From: Cryobacterium sp. Y29
GTDB taxonomy: Bacteria > Actinomycetota > Actinomycetes > Actinomycetales > Microbacteriaceae
Length of the DNA stretch: 64,000 nt
Assembly: GCF_002929825.1 (NCBI RefSeq)
Contig: NZ_PJJN01000031.1
Coordinates: 124,001 to 188,000 of the forward strand
Direction of reading: 5' to 3'
Position numbers and translations under genes: made by a program. The notes beneath the pieces were generated by a model. It was not told the origin of the DNA. It did not search any database and saw only the letters and a program-made list of their open reading frames with translations. This document shows, piece by piece, positions 32,489 to 43,547 of the stretch (positions within the stretch are counted from its first letter, which is position 1; each line of letters opens with the position of its first letter).

Positions 32489-32707
32489 CTACCAGTGCGG
32501 TGGGCGATCCTGCCGCAACTGCGCCTCGTTCGCGCTGGGCGCGCTTCCGGTGTGCGCCACGCCCCCATCTTCGCGGAGCACCGGCGGGTGCGGGTTTGGG
32601 TCGGTATCCGGTGCTGGCAGCAGCTTGGCGCGCCGAGCCGTGCCGCCAGCCTTCACGATTGGCTGGCGGGCCGATCCGAGGAGCGGCTTATCCTCCGAAC
32701 CACTCAC
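32489..32707 (-). CDS. Small hydrophilic protein coupled to the helicase-like gene
   Basis: This frame encodes 72 residues, rich in Pro, Ala and charged residues, ending LRQDRPPHW. Its GTG start overlaps the stop of the 1258-residue helicase-like gene by 4 nt (GTGA), the classic pattern of translational coupling. No domain is recognised. It lies 3 nt from the convergent mscL stop. The overlap and the compact fit between two genes make it plausible; without similarity evidence it could still be a chance frame. Confidence 0.5.
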   Translation of the reverse strand: MSGSEDKPLLGSARQPIVKAGGTARRAKLLPAPDTDPNPHPPVLREDGGVAHTGSAPSANEAQLRQDRPPHW

Positions 32708-35700
32708 GCGCCCGGACGTTTCGGGGTGATGGTGGAAGCGTCGCCGGTCGAAAAGGACCGGGCATCCGCTAGCGGAACACCGGCGATTGCGGCCACGCGT
32801 GCCGCAACGGCGTCGGGGTTGCTGAACAGTTCGAAGCTGTGCACGCGCAGGTAGTGCCAGCCGAGCCGGCGCAGCACCTCAGGGCGCAGCCGCAACGACT
32901 CGCGCAGGCTTGCACGATTGACGACGGCATCCGTTTCGACCACGATCGCGCGGGTTCCGTAAGAAGCAGCCAGGGCAAGCTTGCCGCGGTGGCCGAGGCG
33001 CACACTGAGACCGAGCTTTTCGAGGCGCTTGCCGAGATCGACCAGCATGGCTTCGCTCGCGTCGGGAACCCGCACCTCGTCACGACGTGCTTCGGTCTCG
33101 CTGAGAACCTGAGACAGGGCGAGGATACCGTGACGCTGGCGGTCTTCGTCGATGTCGACGGGGCGAAAGCAGGAGACGATGTCCAGCGCCCGACGTGCAC
33201 GGGTCATGCCGATCGCGAGCAGGCGTTCTCCACCGGGTTCACCGAGGGAACCGAAGTTCGACAGCAGGCGACCGTGCGGGGTGCGGCCGTAGCCGATCGA
33301 GAAGATGACCCGGTCGCGGCTCTGTGCCACGGCCTGCTCGAGGGTGAGTACGGTGAATGGTTCGCTGCGGTCTTTGAGAATGAAATCAGAGAGGTCGGTG
33401 CGCTTGGCAAACGCCGCGAGCACGGCCTGCTGCACGCGCACGGCATGCCGGGTGCTCGCGGTGATCACCATGAGCGATTCGCGCGGACGCTTTGAGGCGT
33501 GGTCGAGTACGAGGTCGACGACCTTCACGACCTCCGCGTCGACGCTCTCGATGGCGCCGCTGTCGGCGTCGGGCATGCCGCGGCCGCCGGCCACATAGTT
33601 GATGGTGAGGCTTCCGTGGCCGAGATAACTTCCGGCCCAGGGCAGGGAGTCGATGCGTCCGCCGTAGAAGCGGTGGTTGACGAGCTCGGCGAGGTCCTCA
33701 CCGCCAGCCCGGTAGCTGCGGGTGAGGGTGAGAGTTGGCAGCAGTTCGCCGAGGCGGGCCAGGGCAGAGTCGGCGTGTAGGGCGTCCACCGATGCGTCGG
33801 GCGCGGCGGTCTCCCCCGAGCCGGCAATGCCGGTTTCGAAGGCTGACGGCGTCTGGGTGACCGGATCGCCGAACGCCACGATCTGTCGGCCGCGGCGAAT
33901 CGCACCGACGTTCTCGGCCAGGGTCGTGGCTCCGGCGTCGACCAGCAGCACGGTATCGAACGTGATCTGGTCGCTGATTCCGGCGATCTCGTAGGGTGAG
34001 GCCAGCCAGACCGGGGCGAGCACTCGACCGAGGTGCGGTGCGACCTCATTGAGCCGGGCTGGGGTGGCACGGTCGGCGCGCAGCAGGCGTCGCAGCTGGT
34101 CCGCTTCCTCGGGAAAGTCGACGACGCCGATCTTCCAGGTTTCGGCGAGCAGCCAGGCCAGCAGCTTGCCGGTTGCGGATGCGTGCGCTTCGTCGACGAG
34201 TTTGAAATCGGCCTCGAGGCGGTCCAGTACCTGGGTGTTGGCGCCCAGCAGTGCCCGGTCGCTCGCGAGCATGATCTCGAGCACGGACTGCCACCAGGCC
34301 AGCTCGAGCTCGACGGCGACGTTCTCTTCCGACACGTGGCGCTGGGACAGGTCGGTCATCAGCGGGTCGAGGTTGTGCTCGCGCAACGTCGCCAGCAGCG
34401 CTGTGCGCTCGTGCAGGTTCGCGAGCACCTCGCTCTCAGCGGCGAGGCCGGAGATCATCGATACGAGCTCATTCAGCTGACGCCCGGCAAGGGCTCGGGG
34501 CGTGCCGCTGGTGCCGAGCGGAATGTCGAGCAGACCGAGGTCTTCCCACACTCGCTGAAAGGCAACGTGCACGTCGTTGATGCCCACCGGCACCTCCGGA
34601 GTGACGCCAGCGGCCGCGTAGCGCTGCCAGAGCGTGCGCTGGCCCTGGATGCGCCGCAGGCTCTCGTTCATGTCGGTCACCCGCACGCCGGGGCGCTGGT
34701 ATTCCTCGGCGAGTTTTCGCAGCCTACGCCGACTGGCCGAACTCATCTCAGACGACTCGCGCCGCGACGACGTGGCGGCGATCAACTCGGTGAGAGACCG
34801 GTCGTAGACGCCAGGTTGAAATTTGTCGAGGGTTTCGCGAATATCCAGCAGCAGACGCAGGTAGATACCGAGTTCATTGATCGTCTCGAACGGGCGCAAC
34901 CGGGTCTGACCGATCAGGCCGTTGGCGCGTTCAAGCAGCCGCGGCAGTTCGATCTGGTTGATGCGTTTGGCGAGCTGGTGCGAGTTGGAGGCATCTGCCG
35001 TGGAGGTGAACGAGGCCCCGTACCAGGGCGAGTCGCCTGGTCCGTACCGAAATTCGCCGAGAACAGCGGCCTTGATCAGGGTGTTCGCGGCGGCCGCCCG
35101 CGAGTGAGCGAGAAGCTCGAGGGCGTGCCGGTCGAGGCGAGCAGTGGTCGACGGCGGCTCGGGCAGCTGGGCGAGCCGGGCCAGTTCGCCCAGCGCGTCG
35201 AGCACAGAGACACCGAGAGCGGAGTCGCGACGAGTGAGCGCCGAACGGTAGTCGAGCAGCACCTTGCGCAAGCGCACAAGGGCGTCATCGACGTCGCCGA
35301 CCCGCGGCTGGGCCGCTTTCTCGTTTCTTGTGATCGACGCGATCAGGTCACGGCGCAGGGTGCGCGAGGTCACGGCAATGCCGGGCAGTCCCACTTGCAC
35401 GAGGCGGCCGTGGATACCATCGAGGCTGGAGCGGCGGGCGCTCACCACGAGTACCCGCTTGTGCTGGGCCACGAGCGAGCCGATCGCGTTGACGATGGTT
35501 TGGGTGCCGCCGGTGCCGGGCAGCGTTTTCACAACGAGGGAGTTGCCGGCCGCGATCTGCGCGACGACGTTCTCCTGCTCGGAGTCGGCGTCACCGAGCA
35601 GCGTGTCTGTGGCGGGCGGACGGGCGTCCTGGCCGATCGGGACGACCGGGTTATACGCGGTCTCGATGTTGCGCCGAGCCGTCAAGTTACCGGCAACGGC

Positions 35701-36480
35701 GTCGAGCAAAGGGTGGTCGAGCGATGAGGCATCGGCGGCGAGCGCCCGGCCGACATCGGCGAAGCTCGACACAACGAGGCGCGGTACGACGTTGAACCAG
35801 GGCAGGTGCGAGGTGAGCCCGCGTAGCCGATCAATGACCGGCTGCGGCTTGAACGCACCATTGGTGACGGCGAGCGCCACGAAAGCGTCGGCGTCGAGCA
35901 CGATCTGAAACTGGTCCTTCAAGGCTCGGGCAAGCTCAGGGTTGAGAAAGGGCTGACCCTTGAGCTTGAGCTCGTAGTCGCGTCCATACCGGCGAATGGC
36001 GAGGGGACGCAGCAGCACCGGGGCACTGTAGTCGACGTCTTGGTAACGCCACTCGGCGAGGCCGATGGCGAGGTTGACCGATTCGAGGCCGCGCATGGAG
36101 CGCAGTTCGATGCCCTTCTGCGTGATCTCGTTCGCGGCCAAACGGGCGTTGCGCAGCGCCAACTCGTCGCGAATGAGGTTGGACAACAGGGTGGTCTTGC
36201 CGATGATGAACTGCGGCAGGCCGCCAGGGTGCGTGGCGCTCAGTTCGATGCGGGTGCGAGCCTCGTCGGTGAAGTGCAGCAGCGGTGAACGACCGCCGAG
36301 CGCGGCAAGTTCGTCGCGCCAACGCTGCCAGACCGGCTCAGCAATATTCCCGGCCGTGAAGGCCGGGTCGCCCAGACTGAGGTTGTGTGGACTGGTCACG
36401 TTTTTTGGGTCGACAGGGACGGCGCCCAGGTACTTGGAAAGCACGTCGTCGTCGTCTTGTTTTCTATCGAGGTGCCACAC
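32704..36480 (-). CDS. Large SF1 helicase-like protein with degenerate ATPase motifs and nuclease-like C-terminus
   Basis: This 1258-residue protein has the layout of DUF4011/UPF1-like superfamily 1 helicases. The P-loop region reads LPGTGGTQT where active relatives have PPGTGKSQT, so the Walker A lysine is Gly. The Walker B region reads VDAGAT in place of DEASQ. Late helicase motifs survive (GDPVTQTPSAF, SYRAGGEDL, RDRVIFSIGYG, MTRARRALDIVS). The C-terminus (about residues 1165-1250) resembles the Vsr/PD-(D/E)XK-type domain common after such helicases (AIVVETDAVV, LRPEVLRRLGWHYLRVHS). TAGGGT lies 6 nt before the GTG start. Its role is unknown: repair or defence scaffold. Confidence 0.85.
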   Translation of the reverse strand: MWHLDRKQDDDDVLSKYLGAVPVDPKNVTSPHNLSLGDPAFTAGNIAEPVWQRWRDELAALGGRSPLLHFTDEARTRIELSATHPGGLPQFIIGKTTLLSNLIRDELALRNARLAANEITQKGIELRSMRGLESVNLAIGLAEWRYQDVDYSAPVLLRPLAIRRYGRDYELKLKGQPFLNPELARALKDQFQIVLDADAFVALAVTNGAFKPQPVIDRLRGLTSHLPWFNVVPRLVVSSFADVGRALAADASSLDHPLLDAVAGNLTARRNIETAYNPVVPIGQDARPPATDTLLGDADSEQENVVAQIAAGNSLVVKTLPGTGGTQTIVNAIGSLVAQHKRVLVVSARRSSLDGIHGRLVQVGLPGIAVTSRTLRRDLIASITRNEKAAQPRVGDVDDALVRLRKVLLDYRSALTRRDSALGVSVLDALGELARLAQLPEPPSTTARLDRHALELLAHSRAAAANTLIKAAVLGEFRYGPGDSPWYGASFTSTADASNSHQLAKRINQIELPRLLERANGLIGQTRLRPFETINELGIYLRLLLDIRETLDKFQPGVYDRSLTELIAATSSRRESSEMSSASRRRLRKLAEEYQRPGVRVTDMNESLRRIQGQRTLWQRYAAAGVTPEVPVGINDVHVAFQRVWEDLGLLDIPLGTSGTPRALAGRQLNELVSMISGLAAESEVLANLHERTALLATLREHNLDPLMTDLSQRHVSEENVAVELELAWWQSVLEIMLASDRALLGANTQVLDRLEADFKLVDEAHASATGKLLAWLLAETWKIGVVDFPEEADQLRRLLRADRATPARLNEVAPHLGRVLAPVWLASPYEIAGISDQITFDTVLLVDAGATTLAENVGAIRRGRQIVAFGDPVTQTPSAFETGIAGSGETAAPDASVDALHADSALARLGELLPTLTLTRSYRAGGEDLAELVNHRFYGGRIDSLPWAGSYLGHGSLTINYVAGGRGMPDADSGAIESVDAEVVKVVDLVLDHASKRPRESLMVITASTRHAVRVQQAVLAAFAKRTDLSDFILKDRSEPFTVLTLEQAVAQSRDRVIFSIGYGRTPHGRLLSNFGSLGEPGGERLLAIGMTRARRALDIVSCFRPVDIDEDRQRHGILALSQVLSETEARRDEVRVPDASEAMLVDLGKRLEKLGLSVRLGHRGKLALAASYGTRAIVVETDAVVNRASLRESLRLRPEVLRRLGWHYLRVHSFELFSNPDAVAARVAAIAGVPLADARSFSTGDASTITPKRPGA

Positions 36481-37576: not shown

Positions 37577-37638
37577 CGGCTCTCCTTGTTCGATCTTCTA
37601 GTGTGTCATTCGCCTTCACCGCCCGGTAACGTTTGAGG

Positions 37639-38244
37639 GTGCCGCAACCGGATGTCTCCCTTTTTCTGGCTCCGCGCGCGCTGCTCCCCCAGACCGACCG
37701 TGCACGGCTCGCCGCCGCCGTTGCCCGGGTCTGCCCGAACTCGGGCCCGGTCACCGTTCAGCAGCGCTGCGAGCGCTGCGGCGGAGCGCATGGCCGCCCA
37801 CGCGTACTCGCGCCCGACGGGGTGCACGTGAGTCTGAGCCGCGCCGGCGACACAGTGGTTGTGGCCGTATCGGTGGTGGGGCCGATCGGTGTCGACCTCG
37901 AGAGCATCAGCGCCGTCGCGCGCGCCGGGTTCGACGACGTGGCCTTCAACGCGCTCGAGCGCGCAGCGCTGTTCGAGATACCTTTCTCCGACCGCAATCG
38001 CGCGCGCGCGGGCCTCTGGACGACGAAGGAGGCACTGCTCAAGTTGTCGGGTGAGGGGCTGACGGTGGACCCGCGGCACGTGACGGTGGGGTGGACTGGC
38101 GCGGGAGCATCCGTTTTGCTGGACTGGCCCACGGCCACCCTCGACCTGGCCCGGGTGCACGTGGCGAACTTCGACGCTGGCCCCGGCCTGATCGGCACGC
38201 TCGCCGTGCTTGGCGGGGCGGCCCCACGAGTATCGGTGCGTTAG
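37639..38244 (+). CDS. 4'-phosphopantetheinyl transferase (Sfp/AcpT superfamily)
   Basis: This protein of about 201 residues attaches the phosphopantetheine arm of CoA to carrier domains. It shows the family motifs IGVDLES (metal-binding Asp and Glu) and WTTKEALLKLSGEGL (catalytic Glu-Lys helix), plus the earlier HVSLSRAGD. It is short for the Sfp type but complete. I chose the GTG at 37639, since TAACGT lies 6 nt upstream as a leaderless -10 box; a TTG at 37633 is also possible. The NRPS at 39588-43547, which needs such activation, is only 1.3 kb away. Its end overlaps the M1 peptidase by 4 nt, tail to tail. Confidence 0.88.
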   Translation: MPQPDVSLFLAPRALLPQTDRARLAAAVARVCPNSGPVTVQQRCERCGGAHGRPRVLAPDGVHVSLSRAGDTVVVAVSVVGPIGVDLESISAVARAGFDDVAFNALERAALFEIPFSDRNRARAGLWTTKEALLKLSGEGLTVDPRHVTVGWTGAGASVLLDWPTATLDLARVHVANFDAGPGLIGTLAVLGGAAPRVSVR

Positions 38245-39569
38245 AGGCTCGGCAGCGCGCTCTGCTGCACCCACCGGGCGACGAAGCCGCCGATCGCCCG
38301 ACTGCCGGTGTGTTCGGAGAAGAAATCTACGAAATCCTCGGTCGAGACCTGCCCGTATCGCCGAGCCGCCGTGTAGGCGCGCAGTGCCGCGAAGAAGGCC
38401 TCGTCACCGAGAGATTTGCGAATGGCGTGCAGGGCGAGTGCGCCTCGTTTGTAGACACGGTCATCGAACATGGCGTGCGCGCCGGGGTCGCCGACGACGA
38501 TGTCGCGGGGCAGCGCCGCAACCCGGCCGCGGTGCAGCACAGCGAGGGCGTCGGCCGTGCGGCCACCGCGCTGCTCCTCCCAGAGCCATTCCGCGTAGCA
38601 CGCGAAACCCTCCTGCAACCAGATGTCCTGCCAGCGGGCCACGGTCAGGCTGTTGCCGTACCACTGGTGCGCCAGCTCGTGGGCGATCAGCCGGTCGCTG
38701 CCATGGTTGCCGTCAACATGGTTGCTGCCGAATATGGCCAGGCCGTGGGCCTCCAGAGGAATCTCCAACTCGTCCTCGGTCACGACGACAGAGTAAGACG
38801 CGAACGGATATGACCCGAACCGGTCGGCGAAGAATGCGATCATTTCGGTGAGGCGGGCGAAGTCGGTTTCGACACGGGTCGCGAGTCGGGCGGGAAAGTA
38901 CAGGCTGTGCGCGACGGGAGCGTCGGCCAGGTCGCGGCGGCGGTAGCGGCCGATCAGCACCGTGGCCAGATAGGTCGCCATCGGCTCTCGCACATCGAAG
39001 GTCCAGCTGGTACGGCCGGAGCGGCTCGACCGGCTCGATAGCACCCCGTTCGACACCACCGTGTAAGCCGATTCGCAGGCGATCTCGATGCGATAGGTGG
39101 CCTTGTCGCTCGGATGGTCGTTGCACGGAAACCAGGACGCGGCACCACAGGGCTGTCCGGAGACGAGCACGCCGTCGTCGAGTTCTTCCCAGCCCACGTC
39201 GCCCCAGGCGCTCCGTACCGGATGCGGTGCCCCGCGATAGCGCACCACCACCTCAAACACGGCCCCGGCCGCGATCGTCGTGGCGAGACTGATGACGAGT
39301 TTGCGTGAAGAGTGCGTCACCTTGGTCGGCCGCGCACCGTTCACCAGAATTTTTTCGATGCTCAGCCCCGCGAAGTCGAGGCTGAACCGGTCGAGGGGCA
39401 TGAGGGCGCGTGCGGTGATGATTGCGGTCGCGTTCAAATGGTTGGTGGCTACCCGATAGGAGAGATTCAGGTCGTAATGTTCCGCCGTGTAGCCGCCATT
39501 GCCGCCGGTGGGAATATAGGGGTCGCCAGCACTAATCGAGCCGTAGGTCGTGCGCACAGTCTGAGCCAT
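38241..39569 (-). CDS. M1-family metallopeptidase (aminopeptidase N-like)
   Basis: This 442-residue zinc peptidase contains the zinc motif HELAHQWYGNSL followed by the third ligand glutamate in WLQEGFACYAEWLW, and the upstream substrate-binding region EIPLEAHGLAIFG in the place of GAMEN. An N-terminal beta-rich domain (LNLSYRVATNHLNATAIITA) precedes the catalytic domain. It is shorter than full aminopeptidase N because the C-terminal helical domain is absent, as in many actinobacterial members. No signal peptide is obvious. It lies between the transferase and the NRPS gene, 18 nt from the latter, suggesting co-transcription after the NRPS. Confidence 0.9.
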   Translation of the reverse strand: MAQTVRTTYGSISAGDPYIPTGGNGGYTAEHYDLNLSYRVATNHLNATAIITARALMPLDRFSLDFAGLSIEKILVNGARPTKVTHSSRKLVISLATTIAAGAVFEVVVRYRGAPHPVRSAWGDVGWEELDDGVLVSGQPCGAASWFPCNDHPSDKATYRIEIACESAYTVVSNGVLSSRSSRSGRTSWTFDVREPMATYLATVLIGRYRRRDLADAPVAHSLYFPARLATRVETDFARLTEMIAFFADRFGSYPFASYSVVVTEDELEIPLEAHGLAIFGSNHVDGNHGSDRLIAHELAHQWYGNSLTVARWQDIWLQEGFACYAEWLWEEQRGGRTADALAVLHRGRVAALPRDIVVGDPGAHAMFDDRVYKRGALALHAIRKSLGDEAFFAALRAYTAARRYGQVSTEDFVDFFSEHTGSRAIGGFVARWVQQSALPSL

Positions 39570-39587
39570 CGTCTTACTATTCCTTGC

Positions 39588-42500
39588 TCAACGATCCCAC
39601 GGCGGCTGGCGCCACGGCGTGATCGGGTTGCCCGACCAGAGCGAACCCGGCGGCACCCGTTCGCCGCGCATCACCAGAGAGCCGGGCCCGACCGTCGCCC
39701 CGGCATCGATGGACGCCGCCGGCAGGATGACTCCGTTCGGGCCGAGCGTGGCGCCCTCGGCGAGCACGACCGCGTCGAGTTGCATGATGCGATCGTGAAA
39801 CAGGTGGGTCTGCACGACACAGCCGCGGTTCACCGTGCTGCCGGCGCCCAGCCGCACCAGGTCAGCTTCGGGCAGCCAGTAGGTTTCGCACCAGACGCCC
39901 TTTCCCACGGTGGCGCCGAGGGTGCGCAGCCACACGGCGAGCGCCGGCGTGCCTGAGGCTTTCTCCGCGAACCAGGGTCGGGCAACCATCTCGACGAAGC
40001 TGTCTGAGACCTCGTTGCGCCAGATGAACGAGGACCAGAGCGGATGCTCCGACGCGTCGATGCGCCCGACCAGCGTCCACTTGACCACTGTCGTGACCCC
40101 GGCCGCCACCGCACCCGCCGTGAGCATGACCACACCCGAGAGACCGATCGCCGCGCCGAGGCCGAGCTGCAGCCACAGCAGGTCCAGCAGTGCGAGCACC
40201 AGAAGCGCGATCCACGCGGTGGTGAAGCCGGCCACGATGCGCAGTAGTTCCCACAGCGACCGGGCTATTTTCAGGCGAACGGGAGGGTGGAAGGTTCGCG
40301 AGTCGTCGGCATCCGTTTGTCTGCGGCGCAGGCGGGCCGGCGGGTTGCCGAGCCAGCTCGAGCCGCGTTTGGCCTTGCGAGGCGTCGACGAAAGCACCGC
40401 GACGAGCCCGTTGCGCGGCACGGTGCGGCCGGGGCCGGCCATGCCGCTGTTGCCGAGGAAGGCCCGGCGGCCTACCTTGGCGGGCCCGATGTGCATCCAG
40501 CCGCCGCCAAGTTCGTAGCAGGCGACCATGGTGTCGTCGGCGAGGAATGCGGCTGGCGCGATGGTCGTCAGTGAGGGCAGCAGCAACACGGTTGATGCCT
40601 CGACATCGGCACCGACTTTAGCCCCGAGCAGCCGCAGCCAGGTGGGCGTGAGCAGGCTCGCGTAGACCGGAAATAACACGGTGCGGGCGCCGTCGAGAAT
40701 ACGTTCGGTCATCCAGACCTGCCAGCCGATGCGGCTGCGCACCGGATAGTAGCCTTCCCGCAGGCCCACTCCGAGCCCGCGCACGAAGATAATCACCAAA
40801 AGTGCGTAGGCGAGCCCGCCGACGACGACGGCTACCGGCATGATCAGGGCTGCGCGCAGCGCGGCAACGCCGAGGTTATCGGCGTCGCCGATAGCGGCGC
40901 CGACAACGAGCACGCCGAGCACGATTGCGATCGTGGGGATGGCGGTCATCGCCACCGATCCGGCCGCGAAGGCGCCGAGCCAGCGACTGGCACGCGGCGG
41001 GCGTTCGGCCGGCCACGGGCGGCGGCCCGACCCCACGCGGTGAGCAGGGGAACCGGCCCACCGCTCTCCGGCTGGTACACGCGACGAGACCACGGAACCG
41101 GGTTCAACCTCGGCGCCGTTGCCAACGTGGGCGCCCCCGAGCAGGGTGCTGCGGGAACCGATCCGGGCATCGGCACCGACATGCACATGGCCGATGCGCA
41201 GCACGTCCCCGTCGATCCAGTGTCCGGCCAGGTCGACCTCGGGTTCGATCGAGGCCTGCGCGCCGATGGTGAGCAGCCCGGTAACCGGGGGCAACGAGTG
41301 CAGGTCGACGTCGGAGCTGATCTCAGCGCCGAGGGCCCGCGCGTAGTAACTGATCCAGGGCGCCCCGGCAAGGCTCGCCGCGTCGACGAGCAGCGCGATC
41401 TGCTCGGCCAGCCATAGCCGCAAGTGCACGGACCCGCCCCGCGGATAGTTGCCTGGCATCACGTCGTGCAGCAACAGTCGGGCCGCCACGACCGCGATGA
41501 GCATTTTGCCGGGCGGGGTCACGAACAGCACAAATCCGAGCGCCACCCACCACCACGACAGGGTCGGGCCGAAGGTTGCGCCGGCCAGGCTGAGCAGATT
41601 GTTGGCGATGGCGAGGTAAACCAGCCAGCGGGCGCCGCTCAGCACGTGCATCGGAATGCCGAGCACCGTCTGTGCGAATTGGCTGCGAGCCGGAGTGGGC
41701 AGCACCTGCCGCACTGCCGGCGGTGTCACGGGGGTGCGGGCGTCGAGTTCCTCGGCGAGCGACCCGATACGCGGGTGGTCGTACAAATCGGCGACGGTGG
41801 TTTCGGGGTGGCGGGCGCGCACGGCCGACACGAATTGGGCGGCCGAGAGCGAGCCGCCGCCCTGGGCGAAGAAATCATCGTCGGGTCCGGTCACCGGCAC
41901 CCCTAAAATCGATGCCCATGCCTCCGCCAGCCAGGCCGCCGTCGGTGACAGCACCCCCGCATCGTCGTCCGACCCGGGCTGCGTAGCGGGCAATGGCCAC
42001 GGCAATGCCGCCCGGTCGACCTTGCCCGAGGTACGGGTGGGTAGCGCATCGACGATGGCGAGCAGCGGCACGAGCGCGGCGGGTAGTTCTTCCCGCAGCC
42101 TGGCGATTGCGGCCTGCCGGTCGAATGGCGTTCCGGCAGTCGCAAGGGCGATATAGCCGACTAGAACGTGGTTGCCGGCAGGGGTGGTCTGCACCACGGC
42201 GGCACCGCCGGCCACTCCGTCGAGGGCGCCCAGGGCGGCATCCACTTCGCCGAGTTCGATACGTCGCCCGCCGAGTTTCACCTGGTCGTCGGCTCGGCCG
42301 GCGAAGACCAGACCGGCCCGGTCGAAACGCACGAGGTCGCCGCTACGGTAGGCGCGGTGCCAGCCGAGCTCGTCGTGCGGAGCATACTTCTCGGCGTCTT
42401 TCTCGGCGTCGAGGTAACGGGCCAGACCCACGCCGCCGATGATGAGTTCGCCGGTCTCCCCCTCGGCGACCCGGTTGCCGTGAGCGTCGACGACGGCGAG

Positions 42501-43547
42501 GTCCCAGCCGTCGAGCGGCAGGCCAATGCGCATCTCACCGACACCGTCGACGAGTGCGCCGCAGGCCACGACAGTCGCTTCGGTGGGGCCGTAGGTGTTC
42601 CACACTTCCCGGCCGCGGGCATTGATGCGGGCGACCAGTTCGGGCGGGCAGGCCTCACCGCCGAAGATCAGCAGCCGCACTGCCTCAAGCGATTCTTCCG
42701 GCCAGAGTGCGGCGAGGGTTGGCACGGTCGAGACGACCGTGATGCCGTGCGCGATCAGCCAGGGACCAAGATCGGCACCGCTGCGCACCAGGGAGCGCGG
42801 GGCCGGCACCAGGCAGGCGCCGTTGCGCCAGGCCAGCCACATCTCTTCACAGCTCGCGTCGAAGGCCACTGACAGACCGGCCAGAACCCGGTCGCTGGTG
42901 CCAATCGGCTCGTCGCGCAGAAACAGGCCGGCCTCGGCGTCTACGAAGGCGGCCGCTGAACGATGCGTGACCGCGACGCCCTTGGGTACGCCCGTCGAGC
43001 CGGAGGTGAAGATGATCCATGCGTCGTCGCCGGGCGTGGGAATGCTGCCATTCGGAAAGACCAATGCCGGGTCGTCGTGCGGGGGCACGGGGCGCCCCCG
43101 GAGCGACTGCAGGTCGAGGCCCGCACGCGGCGCAAAAAAACTGCTCTCCCCGATGATGCCAACCACGCGGGCCTCGGCAAAGACCAGCCGTGCGCGTTCT
43201 TCCGGGTCGTCGGCGTCGACGGGAACGTAGGCGGCCCCCACGAACAACGTGGCCAGAATCGACACATACAGGTCACGCGTACCAGAGGGAATGCGAATGC
43301 CCACGGTGTCCCCTCGGCGCACTCCGGCCAGGCTCAGCGCGTTCGCCTGGGCCTGCACGCGCTGCAGCATGCCGCGATAACTGATGGTGCCGACCGCGTC
43401 TTCCAAGGCCAGGGCATCGGGATACTGCGCCGCGGTCTGCGACAGGATGTCGACCAGGGTGCGGGCGGGCTTTGCCCGGTGGCCCGCCACGAGCACAGCC
43501 TGGGTGTGCCCACTGTCGCCAGCTGGGCTGTACTGGTGCTCGCTCAC
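39588..43547 (-). CDS. Pls/PosA-type non-ribosomal peptide synthetase (A-PCP-membrane acyltransferase)
   Basis: This 1319-residue single-module synthetase has an adenylation domain (about residues 30-520; IFTSGSTGVPKGVAVTH, NTYGPTEATVVACG, YRSGDLVRF, LPTRTSGKVDRAAL). A carrier domain follows (about 540-615; phosphopantetheine serine in QGGGSLSAAQ), then a membrane part with several helices and three blocks of left-handed beta-helix hexapeptide repeats with acyltransferase-like loops. This is the layout of epsilon-poly-lysine-type enzymes, which make amino-acid homopolymers without a thioesterase. Aligned by eye to GrsA, specificity position 239 is Glu, compatible with a basic amino acid. The product is unknown. 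Confidence 0.88.
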   Translation of the reverse strand: MSEHQYSPAGDSGHTQAVLVAGHRAKPARTLVDILSQTAAQYPDALALEDAVGTISYRGMLQRVQAQANALSLAGVRRGDTVGIRIPSGTRDLYVSILATLFVGAAYVPVDADDPEERARLVFAEARVVGIIGESSFFAPRAGLDLQSLRGRPVPPHDDPALVFPNGSIPTPGDDAWIIFTSGSTGVPKGVAVTHRSAAAFVDAEAGLFLRDEPIGTSDRVLAGLSVAFDASCEEMWLAWRNGACLVPAPRSLVRSGADLGPWLIAHGITVVSTVPTLAALWPEESLEAVRLLIFGGEACPPELVARINARGREVWNTYGPTEATVVACGALVDGVGEMRIGLPLDGWDLAVVDAHGNRVAEGETGELIIGGVGLARYLDAEKDAEKYAPHDELGWHRAYRSGDLVRFDRAGLVFAGRADDQVKLGGRRIELGEVDAALGALDGVAGGAAVVQTTPAGNHVLVGYIALATAGTPFDRQAAIARLREELPAALVPLLAIVDALPTRTSGKVDRAALPWPLPATQPGSDDDAGVLSPTAAWLAEAWASILGVPVTGPDDDFFAQGGGSLSAAQFVSAVRARHPETTVADLYDHPRIGSLAEELDARTPVTPPAVRQVLPTPARSQFAQTVLGIPMHVLSGARWLVYLAIANNLLSLAGATFGPTLSWWWVALGFVLFVTPPGKMLIAVVAARLLLHDVMPGNYPRGGSVHLRLWLAEQIALLVDAASLAGAPWISYYARALGAEISSDVDLHSLPPVTGLLTIGAQASIEPEVDLAGHWIDGDVLRIGHVHVGADARIGSRSTLLGGAHVGNGAEVEPGSVVSSRVPAGERWAGSPAHRVGSGRRPWPAERPPRASRWLGAFAAGSVAMTAIPTIAIVLGVLVVGAAIGDADNLGVAALRAALIMPVAVVVGGLAYALLVIIFVRGLGVGLREGYYPVRSRIGWQVWMTERILDGARTVLFPVYASLLTPTWLRLLGAKVGADVEASTVLLLPSLTTIAPAAFLADDTMVACYELGGGWMHIGPAKVGRRAFLGNSGMAGPGRTVPRNGLVAVLSSTPRKAKRGSSWLGNPPARLRRRQTDADDSRTFHPPVRLKIARSLWELLRIVAGFTTAWIALLVLALLDLLWLQLGLGAAIGLSGVVMLTAGAVAAGVTTVVKWTLVGRIDASEHPLWSSFIWRNEVSDSFVEMVARPWFAEKASGTPALAVWLRTLGATVGKGVWCETYWLPEADLVRLGAGSTVNRGCVVQTHLFHDRIMQLDAVVLAEGATLGPNGVILPAASIDAGATVGPGSLVMRGERVPPGSLWSGNPITPWRQPPWDR

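Follow-up and report, generated by a model that had tools for sequence, protein, structure and literature searches.

What polymer, if any, is made by a single-module synthetase encoded in the genome of Cryobacterium sp. Y29 (Actinomycetota; Microbacteriaceae), and which of the genes beside it belong to the same system? The locus lies in a stretch of 64,000 nucleotides (hereafter the window; positions 124,001 to 188,000 of contig NZ_PJJN01000031.1, assembly GCF_002929825.1) from a genome of 3.66 Mb. Three genes fall within positions 37633-43547 of the window: a synthetase gene, pls, and a gene for an M1 metallopeptidase, both on the minus strand, and a gene for a 4'-phosphopantetheinyl transferase (PPTase) on the plus strand. 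The identity of these genes, the architecture of the synthetase, the identity of its substrate pocket with that of the epsilon-poly-L-lysine synthase adenylation domain 7WEW, the gene order, its conservation, and the co-occurrence of PPTase with Pls are established directly. The locus is very probably an epsilon-poly-L-lysine module, a kind already known in coryneform actinobacteria, because the pocket matches 7WEW, the pocket codes of other family members differ, and a peptidase of the PldII type adjoins pls. What merits follow-up is that PPTase and Pls co-occur and that Pls is almost constantly present in one genus.

Synthetase Family and Substrate Pocket

The pls gene (39588-43547, minus strand, GTG start) encodes a protein of 1319 amino acids. 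A Pfam scan identified AMP-binding (residues 36-377), one PP-binding (539-600), and one hexapeptide stretch (787-821), with no condensation or thioesterase domain among its matches. The NCBIfam model TIGR02353 ('Pls/PosA family') spans residues 625-1309 with 716 bits against a cut-off of 423 (E 4.5e-215), and the original prediction of a Pls/PosA-type single-module synthetase is thus confirmed. Adenylation (A) and thiolation (T) domains precede this terminal domain. The A domain comprises residues 29-521 (41985-43463), as delimited by phmmer alignment to 7WEW and code extraction, and the T, or carrier, domain comprises residues 539-600 (41748-41933; PF00550, E 9.9e-13).

The best match of the synthetase in the PDB was 7WEW (606 bits), followed by linear gramicidin synthetase (386 bits), and the A domain is 61% identical to 7WEW over 496 aligned positions. 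Across 1294 aligned positions, the synthetase is 52% identical to an annotated Streptomyces Pls, whose own A domain shares about 90% identity with 7WEW and which serves here as a stand-in for the S. albulus enzyme. The nearest named Pls relative is that of C. ruanii (90%).

Code extraction returned the pocket DAESIGTVVK (residues 230, 231, 234, 273, 294, 296, 318, 326, 327, and 509), exactly as it had earlier been read by eye, and all 10 positions are identical to those of 7WEW. The same code was recovered in 118 of 118 rows of pls loci. Similarity was the criterion by which these rows were gathered, and among them are the record of the window itself (L030) and two records that look like one genome (L020 and L031); the uniform code is a property of the group and no independent confirmation of substrate.

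The pocket was compared with those of 7WEW, PosA (the delta-poly-L-ornithine synthetase of Acinetobacter baumannii), the PDAP synthetase, and the enzyme for poly-beta-lysine. PosA resembles the Cryobacterium synthetase in domain order, in the conserved pocket Asp and Glu, and in the model of its C-terminal part, and it is reported to share 36% identity with 7WEW over the A core (PMC10522769). Unlike the Cryobacterium enzyme, it has the code DMEHNGTVSK, in which Met218 limits substrate length; the epsilon-poly-beta-lysine enzyme has DGESISVVNK (PMC10522769). According to the same source, the position of PosA Met218 is occupied by Ala in lysine-activating members and by Phe in the PDAP synthetase, and the substitution M218A raised the efficiency of PosA with L-Lys nearly tenfold. 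The Cryobacterium pocket has Ala at the equivalent position. The Glu at GrsA position 239, a position noted in the original prediction as acidic in several domains that activate Lys or Orn, corresponds to PosA Glu221, which is described as contacting the terminal amine and whose mutant was inactive (PMC10522769). Given the differing codes of PosA and the beta-lysine enzyme and the Phe of the PDAP synthetase, poly-ornithine, poly-diaminopropionate (poly-Dap), and poly-beta-lysine were rejected as candidates. The earlier suggestion of a poly-amino acid therefore holds, and within the Pls/PosA family the predicted substrate can be narrowed, with good confidence, to lysine, since the pocket equals that of 7WEW and the PosA and beta-lysine codes differ from it.

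Architecture of the C-Terminal Part

The C-terminal, putatively polymerising part (residues 625-1309; 39621-41675) was delimited by TIGR02353 and examined with an AlphaFold2 model and Foldseek. The model, which covers residues 610-1312 and was built from 51 sequences (mean pLDDT 88.9, pTM 0.89), predicts beta-helix stretches at about residues 741-844, 976-1069, and 1212-1309, interspersed with three pairs of long helices that presumably lie in the membrane. The membrane and beta-helix acyltransferase domains that had been proposed are recognisable in this model, with partial agreement from hydropathy: a scan marked segments 668-689, 857-930, and 1100-1156, with weaker ones at 92-111 and 984-1003, and so covered the modelled helices only in part, leaving the first long helix unmarked. 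Foldseek matched the model to hexapeptide acyltransferases (CysE and maltose acetyltransferase; best E 3.3e-5), with whole-query TM-scores of only 0.09-0.14. The predicted arrangement of three lobes and three helix pairs is already known from a published model of PosA (PMC10522769).

An M1 Peptidase Adjoins the Synthetase Gene

The original prediction placed the transferase 1.3 kb from the synthetase. The spacing between the two genes is indeed about 1.34 kb, but the gap is filled by an open reading frame (ORF) for an M1 metallopeptidase that had been overlooked. This ORF (38241-39569, minus strand, 442 amino acids; PF01433, E 5.1e-28) begins 18 nt past the stop of pls on the same strand, a spacing that suggests that the two genes are probably carried on one transcript. 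The peptidase bears the zinc motif HEXXH-18-E, as do all 114 M1 ORFs that could be judged among the 118 loci, and a same-strand M1 peptidase gene lies within 2.3 kb downstream of pls in each of 80 named loci.

The gene order recalls that of Streptomyces, where the annotation of Streptomyces sp. NBC_01454 has a gene for 'epsilon-poly-L-lysine synthase Pls' overlapping one for an 'M1 family metallopeptidase' by 4 bp, and where pldII of S. albulus is reported to overlap pls likewise by 4 bp (PMC4361855). The two systems are alike in their A and T domains followed by a three-lobed C-terminal part, in their identical pocket, and in the M1 gene directly downstream; they differ in the 18-nt gap of Cryobacterium and in the PPTase gene alongside it, none being annotated in the Streptomyces stretch seen. 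The Cryobacterium peptidase is 40% identical to the Streptomyces partner, a comparison made without the S. albulus PldII sequence and in which the M1 nature of the partner is taken from annotation.

PldII has been described as the main polylysine-degrading enzyme, located outside the membrane and self-protective (PMC9223678), and, as reported in PMC8117764, the peptidase partner is a gene context unlike that of the other three synthetases. Genetically, the epsilon-polylysine type is recognised by a PldII-type peptidase beside pls. By analogy with characterised relatives, the Cryobacterium peptidase would degrade epsilon-polylysine. An account of PldII based on docking, in which the enzyme has two zinc sites (PMC9223678), does not fit the one-zinc M1 motif, and here the sequence was preferred.

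Separately, 14 Cryobacterium genomes encode, at another site, a further M1 peptidase that shares 35-38% identity with the PldII-type enzyme (e.g., G036, contig C33, 182159-183529), with one more in G032 (G-numbers denote the Cryobacterium genomes compared, n = 57, and L-numbers denote records of pls loci).

The PPTase Gene Co-occurs With Pls in Cryobacterium

The PPTase gene (37633-38244, plus strand, 203 amino acids) is convergent with the peptidase gene, their 3' ends overlapping by 4 nt. Its product matches PF01648 (E 7.4e-10; 39.3 bits against a cut-off of 25) and contains the stretches GVDLE and WTTKEA, which conform to the motifs GxDxE and WxxKEA that we take to be marks of Sfp-type PPTases as distinct from AcpS. 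All NCBIfam matches of the protein fell under cut-off, and a PDB sequence search at E 0.01 returned none. Its assignment to the Sfp/AcpT-like kind is based on PF01648, on linkage, and on co-occurrence with Pls.

Pls was identified in 53 of the 57 Cryobacterium genomes. All 53 have two or three places that match PF01648, whereas the four genomes without Pls (G024, G025, G043, and G055) have one each. That single place reads by eye as AcpS, based on its sequence and its position between glmS-like and alr-like ORFs; the genome of the window has a separate AcpS-like gene on contig C20, and it was in these five genomes that AcpS was assigned by sequence. The naive chance figure for the 53:4 split is 2.5e-6, which is no true probability since genomes of one genus are not independent. 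The Pls-associated peptidase is absent from all four Pls-less genomes, and in a fifth genome without it (G045) both pls and the PPTase gene are cut by contig ends. Where the peptidase was located, the PPTase gene lies on the same contig and convergent to it in 51 of 52 genomes, at less than 1 kb in 40 and at 1.7-9.8 kb in 11; in G049 it is on another contig.

Genes for CorA and an HNH protein flank the module of pls, peptidase, and PPTase in the window. In the Pls-less G024, corA and the HNH gene are separated by 3.3 kb that contains other genes; there, an acyl-CoA dehydrogenase-like ORF (by eye) and an ORF matching an NlpC query take the place of the module (L118:2366-5306).

Carrier domains were counted at E 1e-4. 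In 23 of the 53 Pls-bearing genomes there are only two, the T domain of Pls and one place like an acyl carrier protein (ACP), which is taken to be the fatty-acid ACP and whose sequence was seen for the genome of the window alone. A single carrier place was counted in three of the Pls-less genomes, and two were counted in G024. A further protein of 884 amino acids, a fusion of adenylation, carrier, and acyltransferase_3 domains (G000, contig C17, 33337-35988; L125:3338-5989), is encoded in 15 of the 57 genomes. Collectively, the co-occurrence across the genus supports the proposal that the PPTase serves the synthetase, and the PPTase is probably the activator of Pls.

Wider Distribution and Integrity of the Genes

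Among the 80 named loci, a PPTase gene near pls was found in 30 by direct tblastn and in 34 by a profile built from those. All 34 belong to the 39 loci from Micrococcales, compared to 0 of 41 from other actinobacteria; flanks extended at most 6 kb, such that a more distant PPTase would be missed. Simple patterns found neither PPTase motif in L086, L094, and L100 of the 34, and several others show one of the two. The Micrococcales loci with no PPTase match are L032, L060, L069, L084, and L087, and L060 ends about 0.5 kb past the peptidase. In two of the 34 (L071 and L101) the PPTase is not convergent. An Arthrobacter plasmid (L132) also has the PPTase beside pls.

In an even draw from the class, Pls-type A domains (E 1e-100) were detected in 64 of 296 genomes and 22 of 114 genera. 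As a separate observation, such domains also occur on plasmid records of Rhodococcus, Arthrobacter, Mycobacterium avium, and M. intracellulare. Among 14 control genomes, that of Corynebacterium glutamicum has a TIGR02353 match above cut-off; in this same species, the C. variabile gene yielded no polymer.

Pls matches are split or cut in five Cryobacterium genomes (G009, G013, G027, G028, and G045), where every break falls at contig ends or at a scaffold join. In the C. ruanii gene (L104, G027), what had seemed a natural frame break proved to be a scaffold join, where an overlap is repeated and N marks the junction. The breaks in G009, G013, and G028 coincide with ends of contigs in a GC-rich stretch. 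Assembly breaks of these two kinds cluster at pls residues of about 805-850 in four Cryobacterium genomes (L104 at about 8425; L134-L139), which looks like sequencing difficulty in that GC-rich stretch. In the pls gene of the Arthrobacter plasmid L132, the reading frame breaks near residue 846 without evident cause.

Two further observations concern the surroundings of the locus. A DtxR gene lies near pls, and control of pls by iron via DtxR was considered and set aside. A protein of 1258 amino acids at 32704-36480 (minus strand) resembles part of the anti-phage protein ProA (NF058533, 278 bits, below the cut-off of 1500); a ProA-like protein adjoins corA in G024, G025, G043, and G045, three of which are without pls.

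Comparison With Alternative Explanations

Several observations weigh against an epsilon-poly-L-lysine module in which this PPTase activates Pls. The identities to the Streptomyces counterparts are modest (52% for Pls and 40% for the peptidase), so the case for orthology leans as heavily on gene order and motifs as on identity. The role of PldII in chain length is disputed between studies: repression altered chain length in one (PMC9223678), and, according to a review, inactivation of Pld and PldII left production and chain length unchanged (PMC8506220). Polymer was not seen in the native host Corynebacterium variabile under the culture conditions applied, nor with its gene in C. glutamicum (PMC8117764), and the lack of native polymer means that the Cryobacterium locus may likewise be silent. 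In G008 the ORF of the peptidase is broken, and in G033 it is split into two pieces. Shared ancestry among the four Pls-less genomes is possible, in which case the losses are not independent. The genome of the window encodes a second possible PPTase client, the 884-residue protein. Finally, the lack of a PPTase beside pls outside Micrococcales indicates that the linkage is no general property of Pls.

These points bear differently on the other readings of the locus. That the synthetase makes another cationic polymer (delta-poly-ornithine, poly-diaminobutyrate, poly-Dap, poly-beta-lysine, or a mixed product) is conceivable in a family that yields several polymers and in which single pocket changes such as PosA M218A shift the substrate (PMC10522769). 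We nonetheless consider it very improbable given the match to 7WEW at every pocket position, the different codes of PosA and the beta-lysine enzyme, the Phe of the PDAP synthetase where Cryobacterium has Ala, and the peptidase partner that, as described in PMC8117764, sets the epsilon-polylysine context apart from the other three synthetases. It is somewhat easier to imagine that the genes are silent or decaying and yield no product in nature, as the C. variabile result (PMC8117764), the broken peptidase frames of G008 and G033, and the frame break on the Arthrobacter plasmid would suggest. This too is unlikely, for Pls is kept in 53 of the 57 Cryobacterium genomes, its five split or cut matches coincide with contig ends or a scaffold join, and the rows that could be judged have an intact pocket and zinc motif.

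A more serious alternative, which we still regard as doubtful, is that a general PPTase merely neighbours pls and has another carrier protein as its main client. The 0 of 41 loci outside Micrococcales and the 884-residue carrier protein of the window's genome are consistent with this, but the latter is found in 15 genomes and a second PF01648 place in 53, and 23 genomes have no carrier domain besides the Pls T domain and one ACP-like place. The convergent placement of the PPTase on the contig of the peptidase in all but one of the genomes where the peptidase was located, mostly within 1 kb, likewise argues for a link to Pls.

Proposed Mechanism and Significance

In the epsilon-poly-L-lysine module that we favour, the PPTase would attach phosphopantetheine to the T domain of Pls to give the holo form, and the A domain would adenylate L-lysine and load it onto the T domain. 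Next, the C-terminal part, three-lobed and embedded in the membrane, would join lysines repeatedly via the epsilon-amino group, and a short cationic polymer would exit the cell. At the cell surface, the M1 peptidase may trim or degrade the polymer, which would protect the producer or recycle lysine. The PPTase step is supported by co-occurrence, while the remaining steps are transferred from characterised relatives, as are the presumed lysine substrate, epsilon linkage, membrane topology, and export.

A close precedent is the coryneform set of Pls homologs with a lysine pocket (Corynebacterium, Brevibacterium, Arthrobacter, Microbacterium, and others), which, unlike Cryobacterium, were described from cheese and skin isolates (PMC8117764). 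Within that set, the Pls of C. variabile, 51% identical to Streptomyces Pls, is reported to make epsilon-polylysine in S. coelicolor (PMC8117764). Polylysine-type clusters have also been identified by antiSMASH in Subtercola, another cold-adapted genus of Microbacteriaceae (PMC9287328, PMC10303725). We found no paper in the open-licence literature that links Cryobacterium to polylysine, nor, in the portions of the literature consulted, one that ties a PPTase gene to pls; by full-text word counts, neither Cryobacterium nor phosphopantetheinyl transferase is mentioned in PMC8117764.

Cryobacterium is a cold-adapted genus. We tentatively raise the possibility, which we would not yet expect to hold in full, that pls, the M1 peptidase, and the PPTase form a self-contained, inherited module in Micrococcales with the PPTase as a dedicated activator of Pls, and that the polymer is near-core in Cryobacterium, where, beyond acting as an optional antibiotic, it would have a physiological role linked to the surface, to ions, or to cold.

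Epsilon-polylysine is an approved food preservative obtained from soil Streptomyces (PMC8117764). A near-core Pls locus in a cold-adapted genus is a new enzyme set to try, and the co-inherited PPTase is a testable component that may be required for heterologous production. The near-constant presence of Pls, in turn, raises the question of what use the polymer would be to bacteria that are seldom without pls.

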